Source of the DNA: Gluconacetobacter johannae
GTDB lineage: Bacteria; Pseudomonadota; Alphaproteobacteria; Acetobacterales; Acetobacteraceae
Reading direction: 5' to 3'
DNA length: 64,000 nucleotides
Assembly: GCF_014174305.1 (NCBI RefSeq)
Contig: NZ_JABEQH010000001.1
Span: 1 to 64,000, forward strand
Shown here one piece after another: positions 17,878 through 22,888 of the stretch; positions within the stretch are counted from its first letter, which is position 1, and the number at the start of each line of letters is the position of its first letter. The notes beneath the pieces are model-generated. The model made no database searches and was not told the origin of the DNA. It saw only the letters and a list, made by a program, of their open reading frames with translations. Both the position numbers and the translations under genes were made by a program.

Positions 17878-19101
17878 TCAGAGCGGCAGGATACGTTCCG
17901 ACAGTTCGCTCAGCGCCTGGATGCCGGGCAGCGTCTTGCCTTCCAGCCATTCCAGGAACGCGCCGCCGGCGGTCGAGGTATAGGACATCTGGTCCGCCAC
18001 CCCGGCATGGCGCAGCGCGGATACGGTGTCGCCGCCGCCCGCGACGCTGGTCAGTTGCCCCGCCTGGGTTCGCCGCGCCACTTCGGCCGCCAGTTCGTTC
18101 GTGGCGGTGTCGAAGGGATGCAGCTCGAACGCGCCCAGCGGCCCGTTCCACACCAGCGTCTTCAGGCCGATGACCTTCTGGGTCAGCAGCCTGACCGTCT
18201 CCGGCCCCGCGTCCAGCACCATCGAATCGGCGGGGATGGCATCGACCGGCACGGTCCTGGTCGGCGGGTCGGCCCGGAATTCGGTCGCCGTCACGGCGTC
18301 GACCGGCAGCACGATCTCGCATCCCCGTTCCGCCGCGCGGGCCATGATGGCGCGCGCGGTGTCGTGCATGTCGGCTTCCTGCAGCGACTTGCCGACATTG
18401 ATCCCTTTCGCCGCGAGGAAGGTGTTGGCCATCGCCCCGCCGACGATCAGGACATCGACCTTGTCCAGCAGGTTGCCGATCAGGTCCAGCTTGGTCGAGA
18501 TCTTGGCGCCGCCGACGATCGCGCCGACCGGGTGGACCGGGTTTTCCAGCGCGATGGCCAGGGCGTTCAGTTCGGCCTCCATCAGCCGCCCGGCGAAGGA
18601 CGGCAGGAAGCGGGCCACGCCCTCGGTCGAGGCATGGGCGCGGTGGGCGGCGGAAAACGCGTCATTGACGTAGTCGTCCGCCAGCGCGGCCAGCGCCTTC
18701 GACAGCTCGGGGTCGTTCTTTTCCTCGCCGGCGTGGAAGCGCGTGTTCTCCAGCACCAGGACGTCGCCGTCCTTCAGCGCGGCGACGGCGGCCTCGGCCA
18801 CCGGGCCGATGCAGTCGTCGGCAAACGCCACCGGCCGGCCCAGGGTCTTGCCCAGGGCGGCCGCGATGGGGGCCAGGGACATTTCCGGCACGCGCTTGCC
18901 CTTGGGGCGGTCGAAATGGCTGACGACGATGACCCGTCCCCCCTTGTCCGCCAGTTCGCGGATGGTGGGGGCCAGACGCTCGATCCGGGTCAGGTCGGTG
19001 ATGTGCCCGTCACGTACGGGCACATTCAGGTCGGCGCGCAGCAGGATCTTGCGTCCCGCCGCGTCCAGCGTATCGAGCGTCTTGAACGAGACGCTGCCCA
19101 T
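17878..19101 (-). CDS. pgk: Phosphoglycerate kinase
   Basis: Interconverts 1,3-bisphosphoglycerate plus ADP and 3-phosphoglycerate plus ATP, 407 residues. Substrate-binding block [14 protein letters not shown], the HFDRPKG motif and the C-terminal nucleotide site [13 protein letters not shown] are present. The ATG at 19101 overlaps the gap stop by one base (TGATG), so the two are coupled. It is the last gene of a transketolase-like/gap/pgk operon. Confidence 0.97.
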
Positions 19102-20120
19102 CACAGCGACCCGAACAGGGCGGCGGTGTCCGACATCCGGTTGGAGAAGCCCCACTCGTTGTCGTACCAACTGCAGATCCGCACCAGCTTGCCGCCGTCC
19201 ACCAGCGCCGTTTCCGTCGCGTCGAAGGTCGAGGACGCGATGGTGTGGTTGAAGTCGGTGCTGACCAGCGGCTCGGTGTTGTAGGCCAGGATGCCCTTCA
19301 GCGGCCCCTCGGACGCGGCCTTCAGCATCGCCGCGTTGACTTCCTCGACCGAGGCGGGCGGGCGCGTCGGCACGAAATCGAGCGAGACGAGCGAGACGTT
19401 GGGCGTGGGCACGCGAATTGCGGTGCCGTCCAGCTTGCCCTTCAGGTGCGGCAGCACCAGCCCGACCGCCCGGGCCGCGCCGGTCGAGGTCGGGATGATG
19501 TTCATCGCCGCGGCGCGGGCGCGGCGCGGGTCCTTGTGCAGCGTGTCCACCGTGCGCTGGTCGCCGGTGTAGGAATGGATGGTGACCATGTAGCCGCGCT
19601 CGATCCCGAACGTCTCATCCAGCACCTTGGCGACGGGCGCCAGGCAGTTGGTGGTGCACGACGCGTTGGAAATCACGGTCATGTCGCTGGTCAGCGTGTC
19701 GTGGTTCACGCCGTAGACGATGGTGGCGTCCACATGCGTGCCCGGGGCCGAGATGATGACCTTGCGCGCGCCGGCCTCGATCAGGTGGGCGGCCTTCTCC
19801 TTGGTGGTGAAGCGGCCGGTGCATTCCATGGCGACGTCCACGCCCTCGAACGGCACCTTCGTCGGATCGGCCTCGGCCGACACGGCGAGCGTGTAGGTGC
19901 GGCCGTTGGCGGCGATGACGATCGAATTGCCCTCGACGCGGACATCGGCGGGAAAACGGCCGTGGATGCTGTCGTAGCTCAGCAGGTGGGCGTTGTCGGC
20001 GACGCTGCCCAGATCGTTGATGGCGACGGGCTCCACGTCGGTCCGCCCGCTTTCGATGATTCCGCGCAGGACCAGGCGGCCGATACGGCCGAAACCGTTG
20101 ATCGCGACTTTGACAGCCAT
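19101..20120 (-). CDS. gap: Glyceraldehyde-3-phosphate dehydrogenase, type I
   Basis: Forms 1,3-bisphosphoglycerate from glyceraldehyde-3-phosphate with NAD(P), 339 residues. The N-terminal Rossmann motif is [14 protein letters not shown] and the catalytic cysteine motif is [12 protein letters not shown]. The ATG at 20120 ([11 protein letters not shown]) is supported by family alignment; the open frame upstream overlaps the preceding gene. It lies 22 bases after the transketolase-like gene. Confidence 0.97.
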
Positions 20121-20142: not shown

Positions 20143-22275
20143 TCAGCTACGGACCGTCGTCCGATGTAGGACGCCATCCCCGGCCGGGGATCGCACGCGG
20201 CCGCTTCCCGCTTTTTGCCCGGACGGCGAGGGAAAGTCACGTCCCGTCTCATGGATCAGGCGGCGGGCGGTGTCACGGATCCGCTCGGCGGTGATGCCCA
20301 GGCGGCGGTAGAGTTCGCTGGAGGGCGCGGTTTCGCCGAACCCTTCCATGCCGATGAACACGCCGTCCTGGCCCAGCCAGCGTTCCCATCCGAATCCCGA
20401 CGCGGCCTCGATTCCGATGCGCGGGGCGGCGCCCAGCACCTGTTCGCGGTAAGCGACGTCCTGGAGGGCGAACAGTTCCCAGCAGGGCAGCGAGACCAGG
20501 GCCGCGTGGACTCCCTCGCGCACCAGGTGGTGCAGGGCCTGCCGGGCGATCGCGACCTCGCTGCCGGTGGCGATCAGCGTCACCTGGCGCGGTCCGCGCG
20601 CCTCCTCCAGCACGTATCCGCCACGGGCCCCGGTGCCGCCGGCGCCGCGCGGGCGGCGGGGGCGCGTCTCGGCCGCGCCCGGCGTCAGTGCATCCTCCGC
20701 CAGGACGGGGCAGAGCGTCATCAGGCTGGGCCCCTCGGTCCGGCGCAGCGCCAGTTCCCAGCATTCCATCGTCTCCCGCCGGTCGGCGGGGCGGAACACC
20801 GCGACATTGGGCATGGCCCGCAGGCTGGCCAGTTGCTCCACGGGCAGCCATCCCGCGCCGTCGGGGCCCAGCGCCAGCCCGTCGTCGGTCAGCAGGTAGA
20901 TGACCTGCCGCCGCATCATCGCGGCGAAGCGTAGCGCCGGGCGCATACGGTCGATGGCGACGAACGTCGTCGCCCCGCACGGGATCAGCCCGCCATGCAG
21001 CGCGATGCCGTTCAGCAGCGCCGCCAGGCCGTGCACGCGCGTGCCGCAATCGGGCGTCGTCTCGCCCCGGCGGGCCTGCCCCGTCAGTTCGATGCCCCGG
21101 CGGGAGGTCAGGCAGAACAGTTCGGGGATCAGGTCCCGCAGGATGTCCAGCCCCTGCCGCGCGTGCGCCACCGTCGTGTCCGCCGCCGCGCCGCCCACGG
21201 GGCCGGCGGGCAGCGTCGGCGCGCGCGGGCGGCTGGCGCGCAGGGGGGCCGGCTGCAGCGTCGTGGCGTGCAGGGGCGCGCCGGGCATCTGCCACGACCG
21301 GACCCAGTCCTCGCGCCAGAAGGCGGGCAGGCGGCCCTGGGTCGTGCGTTCGAATTCCGGCCGGTGCCGATGCTTGGCCAGGCGGCGCAGCCAGGACCGG
21401 CGTGCCGACGCCCCGCGGCGCGCCGCGGGCGCCCACAGCAGGGTCGACAGATCGCCTTCCGGGGCGGTCGCGGCCCTGGCGGGTTGTGCCGCCCCCGGCG
21501 CCACGGTGCAGGCGATGACGCAGGGCTTGCGCGCGCGCAGCGCGGCCGACAGGGCGGCGTGGACGGCGTCGGGGTCCTCGGCCGCGATCGTGCGTACCGA
21601 CCAGCCGGACGCGGCGTAGCGGGCGAGGGTGTCCTCGGCCTCCTTCCTGTCCTCGGGGGGGATCTCGAACAGGACCGTGACCCGGTCCAGCGCCAACTGG
21701 CCGGCCAGCATCGCCGATTCCAGGGCGACGCCGGTGGACAGTTCCGTTCCGCAGGACAGGACCCAGATCCGATGATTGACGATCGACCGCCCGAACCGCG
21801 CGGCCATGTGCCGTTCGGCCAGCGCCATCCCGATCGCGGCGCCCAGCCCCTGGCCGCTGGAGCCGAACGCCATCTCGACGGCCGGGTGGGCGCCGTATTC
21901 CACCAGGGCCTCGCCGGGCGCGGCCGTCTGCCCGGCCAGGCGCATCATCGCCTGCAAAAGCGGCCGGTGACGCGTGGACGAAACGATGAAGCGGTCGCGG
22001 TCCGGCCAGTCGGCGCAGGCGGGGTCGAAGCGCAGGAACTGGTTCCACAGCACGCAGGTCGGCGTGGCCATCGCGCCGGCCTGCGCGGCGGCGGCGGGGT
22101 TGGGGCTGGCCGTGCGGATGAAGGCCCGCACCGCGTCACGCAGGGCGTGGATGGTCAGGGCATGGATGGTCTGGGCCGGAACGGCCTGTCGCGCGGCTGG
22201 CTCCGGCGGCGCGGCGTCCGTGGCCGGCGGCGCGTCCGGGGCCGGCACAAGCGTCTGGGTTCGCGCGGTGTCCAT
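20143..22275 (-). CDS. Transketolase-family protein, predicted catalytically inactive
   Basis: Protein of 710 residues aligning along its length with transketolase, but with the active site eroded. The pyrophosphate domain (about 70-260) keeps [15 protein letters not shown], yet the Mg/TPP motif GDG...N is replaced: the aspartate position is G176 (in SCGTELSTG) and the asparagine position is P206 (in EIPPED). In the pyrimidine domain (about 400-560) the cofactor-activating glutamate of GVREF is V415 (GTRVHG), and the substrate histidine of THDSI is D464 (TDDGL), while NGIALHGG and [13 protein letters not shown] are well kept. The C-terminal domain is followed by an extra basic tail. It is the first gene of the operon with gap and pgk, where an active transketolase often sits. 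ATG at 22275. A regulatory or structural role is inferred. Confidence 0.8.
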
Positions 22276-22423: not shown

Positions 22424-22888
22424 ATGTTCATCCGTTGTCGTCCCGACCCGATTGTGCGCGCCGCGTTGGCGGCGGGCGCCCTGTGCCTGGCGGGATGCGA
22501 CCTGGTGGACCAGCGGACCTTCGATCCGCGGGCCAGCCGCCCGCCGGCGCCGTTCGTGCCGCCCGCCCCGCCGGGACGCCCGCCCGTTCCGCCCCTGGTG
22601 GAAATCGGCGCGGGGACTCCGCCCGGGCAGTGGCAGCCGGCCCTGCAAGGGGCCGTGGCGCGGGCGCGGGCGTTGAAACCCAACGTTCTGTTCCAGGTCA
22701 GGGTGCTGGTCCCGGCCGGCCCGACGCCGCAGCAGGAAGGCGCCGCCCTGGCCCGCGCGGTGGCCACCGATGGCCGGGCGGTCGCCGCCGCGATCGTGGC
22801 GGATGGTGCGACGTCGTCGCAGGTGGAAATAACCGCTATGTCGGATTCGTCGGTGACCGCCGGCGTAATCCGGGTGTATGTGCGATGA
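22424..22888 (+). CDS. Proline-rich lipoprotein of unknown function
   Basis: Protein of 154 residues with a lipoprotein signal ending CLAGC, then a proline-rich linker ([17 protein letters not shown]). A folded C-terminal domain of about 90 residues contains [19 protein letters not shown] and ends in beta-rich [21 protein letters not shown]. It is divergent from the transketolase-like operon. The terminal domain has a hydrophobic alternation suggesting a periplasmic alpha/beta fold, but I recognise no family. Confidence 0.7.

Follow-up and report, generated by a model that had tools for sequence, protein, structure and literature searches.

Locus, operon and domain composition

We analysed a window of 64,000 nucleotides from Gluconacetobacter johannae, in which ORF, Pfam, phmmer and MAFFT analyses identified a transketolase-like coding sequence of 710 residues plus stop at positions 20143 to 22275 of the minus strand (hereafter pseudo-tkt, and its product the window protein). 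The preliminary description of this DNA had placed an unbroken frame at the head of a gap-pgk operon, and both statements stand. The frame runs from the ATG at 22275 to the stop at 20145-20143; gap, encoding GAPDH (19101 to 20120, minus strand), starts 22 nt past that stop, and the start of pgk, encoding phosphoglycerate kinase (17878 to 19101, minus strand), shares 1 nt with the gap stop. Frame 1 of the plus strand of 20143-22275 is interrupted by stops, antisense ORFs of some length are present as expected at the GC content of the gene, and the GC fractions at its three codon positions (0.75, 0.59 and 0.91) are evidence of coding. A chance ORF was rejected on the basis of the Pfam domains, the phmmer match and a dN/dS far below that of neutral simulation, and an assembly or frame error was rejected on the basis of orthologues in 12 more congeneric genomes. 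The closest named relative of the window genome that we found is G. azotocaptans, with 92% protein identity. Divergently upstream lies a gene of 154 codons (22424 to 22888, plus strand), which occupies this position next to pseudo-tkt in loci from all six genera and was used as a synteny marker; we do not consider it part of the function. By eye it resembles a small lipoprotein, and it has no Pfam match.

The fold-defining blocks of transketolase survive, as had been claimed. All Pfam matches of the window protein are above cut-off (Transketolase_N 106 bits, Transket_pyr 80 bits and two C-terminal models with 116 and 34 bits), so that the PP, Pyr and C-terminal domains are all represented, and phmmer aligns residues 36-669 with the Thermus transketolase 7wrr (E = 1.4e-83). 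The NCBIfam equivalog model TIGR00232 gives 321 bits, below its cut-off of 682 bits. The PP-domain remnant (21460 to 22170, minus strand; residues 36-272) has G176 for D155 and P206 for N185 of E. coli TktA; the loops matching E. coli residues 80-92 and 186-191 are deleted from it, and loop 261-286 is deleted at its end. The Pyr domain (20656 to 21180, minus strand; residues 366-540) has V414 for the catalytic E411 and lacks the loops matching E. coli 391-398 and 520-523. It contains an apparently rebuilt cleft segment (20836 to 20961, minus strand; residues 439-480) with R443 for Y440, D464 for H461 and W476 for H473. The C-terminal domain (20251 to 20655, minus strand; residues 541-675) is followed by a tail, residues 676-710 (20146 to 20250), with an ETGRDFxxPSGQKA-like motif that all 13 Gluconacetobacter copies share and that was not seen in the copies of the other genera.

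AlphaFold modelling of the whole chain with 12 sequences was poor (pLDDT 44, pTM 0.42), and because of this pLDDT the details of the whole-protein model were not used; the 50 Foldseek matches listed for it are transketolases with query TM values of 0.35-0.39. Modelling of residues 365-680, the Pyr+C half, with 13 sequences gave a pLDDT of 59.6 and a pTM of 0.63, with pLDDT below 50 at 127 of the 316 residues, and VIA-align superposed this half model on the transketolase 5vrb_D with Z 23.0 and an rmsd of 3.5 over 253 aligned residues. Since both model alignments include canonical transketolases, these values indicate fold compatibility rather than independent proof. Extra sequences from viral contigs (7 loci) were of little use for deepening the alignment.

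Active-site losses and the intact paralogue

In order to compare the window protein with a working enzyme, we took the E. coli TktA sequence from its genome record, aligned it with the window protein and its relatives using MAFFT, and read 26 positions known from the TktA literature to belong to the cofactor or substrate site. The window protein retains 2 of the 26 TktA letters, G114 and D469. When 17 canonical Acetobacteraceae copies supply the consensus, 3 of the 26 are retained, with residue 158 being Leu in both. Outside the site, 160 of 257 invariant positions are retained by the same consensus-based measure (Fisher p = 7e-7), and by E. coli letters the contrast is 2 of 26 versus 120 of 257 (p = 9e-5). 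By both measures, the loss in the window protein is targeted to the active site.

The preliminary description had assigned D155 to G176, N185 to P206 and H461 to D464, with which the MAFFT alignment agrees; its placing of the cofactor-activating Glu at V415 was right as to the loss and off by one as to the position, E411 being matched by V414. A profile alignment putting the usual Asp, Asn, Glu and His in register had been named as a potential refutation, and none of the four falls into register. The losses exceed those first listed. The third Mg/diphosphate ligand, I187, is deleted, I187-G191 and H261 sitting on deleted loops. None of the substrate residues H26, H66, H100, H261, R358, S385, H461, H473 and R520 is retained, and D381, F434, F437 and Y440 are also gone.

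The window genome has four Transketolase_N matches including pseudo-tkt. An intact tkt, which had been proposed as a check, is present on contig 3 (C3:188021), adjoining a transaldolase-PGI fusion and 6-phosphogluconate dehydrogenase, and retains 25-26 of the 26 site residues. Contig 5 carries a protein of 677 aa (L117:3918-5951) that has all three domains of the transketolase type and to which pseudo-tkt gave no tblastn match at 1e-8, and contig 11 carries a split transketolase-like pair of 272 and 308 aa among tightly packed ORFs (L118:2232-3973). A second tkt was found in all 28 other searched genomes with a degenerate or partly degenerate copy (this copy being a mere fragment in one of them). 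A paralogue with an intact active site, as known for pseudo-transketolases of the TKTL1-like kind, therefore accompanies pseudo-tkt in its own genome and in 28 of 28 others. The residue check of the second tkt covered loci other than L173-L192 (20 of the 44 described below), and all 30 copies fetched hold 25-26 of the 26 residues when aligned with TktA; for this reason misalignment was rejected as the cause of the losses. The pseudo-tkt product is 29% identical to the intact Tkt of its genome, which belongs to a separate clade.

Degenerate orthologues, phylogeny and selection

The searches covered 60 relatives, 200 members of the family and 150 of the order, in sets that overlap. Residues were compared in 44 degenerate copies of full length, each from a different genome, which belong to Gluconacetobacter (g1, 13 copies) and five further genera (g97, 3; g84, 4; g55, 21; g80, 2; g2, 1). 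Because these loci were picked by similarity and genome, 44 is not a prevalence figure, and it stands beside further operon copies found in the relative, family and order sets. Counts of degenerate rows leave aside three partly degenerate copies (L052, L053 and L055) and a degenerate long-branch copy of genus g121 (L067); G013 (a fragment only) and G167 and G215 (both g80) lie outside the residue reading. No pseudo-tkt was found by gene search in G085 and G158.

All 44 rows are open, stop-free frames of 636-751 aa. None retains H66, H100, L116, M158, N185, I187, I189, H261, R358, D381, F434, F437, Y440, H461 or H473, with M158 replaced by Leu in every row, and the losses are common to the 13 full-length Gluconacetobacter copies, in line with the orthologue survey that had been suggested. 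Retention is partial at E411 and D469 (21 of 44 each), D155 (14), H26 (8), R520 (7), S385 (5) and G114 (41). The E411 keepers are clade members in g55, g80 and g2, and the D155 keepers are some of the g55 copies. Some relatives are thus less stripped than the window protein, and since they hold E411 and D155, early members may have kept partial TPP binding. Several replacements are shared widely: all 44 rows, from all six genera, have Arg for Y440; 43 rows, from five of the six genera, have Trp for H473, where the g2 copy has Phe; 37 rows have an acidic residue (Asp or Glu) for H461; and 40 rows match the local motif DRMRxALR exactly. E165, near the dimer centre, is retained in at least 90% of rows, and 40 of 44 rows have Thr for E160. 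Conservation of the Pyr-side cleft across three genera is 0.61, versus 0.64 at canonical-invariant positions outside the site, and that of the PP side is 0.40. A preferential re-fixation of lost positions was not supported overall: among 18 rows drawn from the three nearest genera, 13 canonical-invariant columns have become fixed for a different residue and 90 vary.

In a mixture-model tree, calculated without L052, L053, L055, L009, L028 and L034 and with L067 placed in it, 43 degenerate rows group together with an SH-aLRT of 100, and the rows of any genus represented more than once are monophyletic, which matches the prediction of vertical inheritance. An earlier tree under another model, without the near-copies L009, L075 and L081 and with L095 and L096 being duplicates, likewise joins 24 degenerate rows including L067 in one clade (99). 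The two trees differ on whether the partly degenerate L052 and L053 adjoin the degenerate clade, and this clade has several long branches, among which there may be attraction. The partly degenerate operon transketolases come from three other genera (L052, L053 and L055; L108, L109 and L110) and retain 15, 15 and 10 of the 26 residues; they are possibly intermediates or separate decays. In other Acetobacteraceae, two canonical loci (L044 and L114) have an operon transketolase in the same place before gap and pgk, with the same three domains and 45 and 44% identity to the pseudo-transketolase, and six canonical operon rows retain 25 of the 26 TktA residues as compared to 2 of 26 in the window protein. 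Together, these alignments and trees describe a pseudo-transketolase that has been passed on vertically and whose cleft has been rebuilt.

The degenerate gene is immediately upstream of gap on the same strand in 43 of 44 loci. The exception, G153 (L106; L149), has its copy apart from gap-pgk, and no copy in that genus has a longer branch. All 16 loci taken from genomes that lack pseudo-tkt, in 15 genera, still have the 154-aa divergent gene upstream of gap-pgk, and tblastn finds no remnant of pseudo-tkt there; in one of them (L160) the space is occupied by another ORF, by eye a hydantoinase/carbamoylase-type hydrolase. A GAPDH+PGK tree resolves these 16 loci into three separate losses. As other genera lost the gene, its function is dispensable.

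Selection was measured as dN/dS by NG86. For pseudo-tkt the ratio is 0.13-0.22 in eight close Gluconacetobacter pairs, 0.33-0.36 in four pairs across that genus and 0.51 between the window and g97 (at dS 0.8), and in the 13 closest g55 pairs it is 0.045-0.18. In 120 neutral simulations of the pseudo-tkt sequence the ratio was 0.69-2.34. The neighbours give 0.01-0.13 (gap) and 0.02-0.26 (pgk) in Gluconacetobacter pairs, and in five congeneric pairs the intact tkt gives 0.07-0.22 versus 0.18-0.36 for pseudo-tkt, which evolves two to three times faster (dN 0.031 versus 0.011; 0.192 versus 0.093). The protein evolves under purifying selection, usually with less constraint than its neighbours. A kept fold, lost catalytic residues and a gene kept by selection, the marks of a pseudo-transketolase of the TKTL1-like kind, are found together here.

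Candidate role and alternative explanations

We consider it likely, with a probability of roughly 0.8, that the pseudo-transketolase is the ancestral transketolase of the Acetobacteraceae operon, kept folded after a second tkt of another subfamily took over catalysis. The alignments show that the residues and loops that serve TPP/Mg and sugar phosphates have been lost, while the three-domain sequence framework and the linkage to gap-pgk are kept. Catalysis has very likely been lost; the protein is predicted to bind no TPP, to have no transketolase activity and to retain the ancestral mode of dimerisation. The earlier proposal of a pseudoenzyme with a retained non-catalytic function is supported by the selection pattern, the shared losses and the intact tkt elsewhere in the genome, and because the protein is constrained, it probably does have a non-catalytic job.

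Linkage and probable co-transcription point to GAPDH and PGK, and we infer that a binding partner or regulator made together with these two enzymes is the most likely form of this job. One mRNA would yield the pseudo-transketolase, GAPDH and PGK, and the putative cofactor-free partner would organise or tune the triose-phosphate step, and its former active-site cleft, now built around the invariant Arg443, the nearly invariant Trp476 and an acidic residue at 464, would serve as a stability plug or hold another ligand. Taken on its own, this mechanism, from the shared mRNA to the plugged or ligand-holding cleft, is a tentative proposal that we would not expect to hold in full. The sensing of phosphosugars through the old site seems unlikely, because R358 and H461 are absent from all rows and S385 and R520 from most. 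Another ligand could be bound there, given the near fixation of Arg443 and Trp476.

The cleft could instead be what the protein is kept for, as a ligand sensor or the seat of new TPP-free chemistry, with Arg443, the acidic residue at 464 and Trp476 forming a putative site for another metabolite. The fixation of Y440R in six genera and of H473W in five, the nearly constant DRMRxALR motif and a Pyr side about as conserved as invariant positions elsewhere would fit such a site; however, most remaining cleft positions drift (H26, H100, N185 and S385 among them) and the PP side is less conserved, and we regard this reading as unlikely. Its more ambitious form, a bacterial family of cofactor-free transketolase folds in which the thiamine cleft became a putative conserved site for another metabolite, by way of which the protein would control the GAPDH/PGK translated from one mRNA with it, is a little less probable again. 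A dominant-negative subunit was also considered. Transketolase active sites combine the PP domain of one subunit with the Pyr domain of the other, so that putative heterodimers with the intact Tkt would have both sites dead or altered and would titrate Tkt. The intact tkt in every genome with a degenerate or partly degenerate copy and the retained E165, albeit next to a replaced E160, are compatible with such dimers, and human TKTL1 depletes TKT through stable heterodimers (PMC6555833). The low identity to the intact Tkt and its separate clade argue against mixed dimers and weaken the earlier guess at a partner of an active transketolase; moreover, all 16 genomes without pseudo-tkt carry a Tkt from the same clade as the intact Tkt of the window genome. 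We therefore judge this alternative improbable.

Three further explanations have much lower probability. A functionless gene decaying slowly, already disfavoured, would account for its faster evolution than gap, pgk and the intact tkt, for the complete losses elsewhere and for the unlinked long-branch copy of G153, but the stop-free frames in all 44 rows and close-pair dN/dS values of 0.045-0.22, as compared to at least 0.69 under neutral simulation, make it very improbable. Retention for the sake of the mRNA, through translational coupling or an internal gap promoter, is suggested by the 22-nt spacing and the near-constant linkage, and is equally hard to credit in view of the selection on amino acids and of the 16 loci without pseudo-tkt where the divergent gene is still followed by gap-pgk. 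A TPP enzyme of altered specificity is the least probable: some relatives hold E411 or D155, but the window protein has neither, nor N185 and the I187-G191 loop, and no row holds N185.

Pseudo-transketolases are already known from animals (PMC6555833, PMC11836677). In the available portions of these papers, human TKTL1 has a transketolase fold and is virtually inactive alone, with an active paralogue alongside (PMC6555833), while Drosophila Tktl is a predicted pseudoenzyme that has lost critical residues, and insect paralogues like it are almost all testis-restricted, with no bacterial counterpart mentioned (PMC11836677). TKTL1 resembles the present protein in being a transketolase-fold protein beside an active paralogue, and differs in being an animal protein that heterodimerises with TKT, whereas ours is distant from its Tkt and is encoded in a glycolytic operon; Tktl shares the critical-residue loss and differs as a divergent insect paralogue. 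The Pyr+C half model also matches PDB 6yaj, an inactive beta4 tetramer of a split transketolase (Z 17.5), which is comparable in that the Pyr+C part of the fold forms an assembly without catalytic activity; from its title we take it to be a component of a split-gene enzyme, presumably inactive since its partner chain is missing. To our knowledge, few bacterial pseudoenzymes have been described in core carbon metabolism. Literature searches confined to an open-access collection, with few subscription papers, yielded no bacterial pseudo-transketolase, and the term transketolase is absent from the text of the review 'Emerging functions of pseudoenzymes' (PMC10211241).

Genome papers count transketolases by homology, with two for A. 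pasteurianus 386B (PMC3751514) and four for G. xylinus CGMCC 2955 (PMC5908849). One of those listed in each may be this pseudo-transketolase, and if this is true, models of the metabolism of vinegar- and cellulose-producing bacteria contain a false enzyme. The family would form a natural series in which a canonical enzyme of the operon becomes a fixed protein without catalysis, with clean loss in other genera and partly degenerate relatives alongside, and such a series lets one ask which roles a metabolic enzyme has beyond catalysis.
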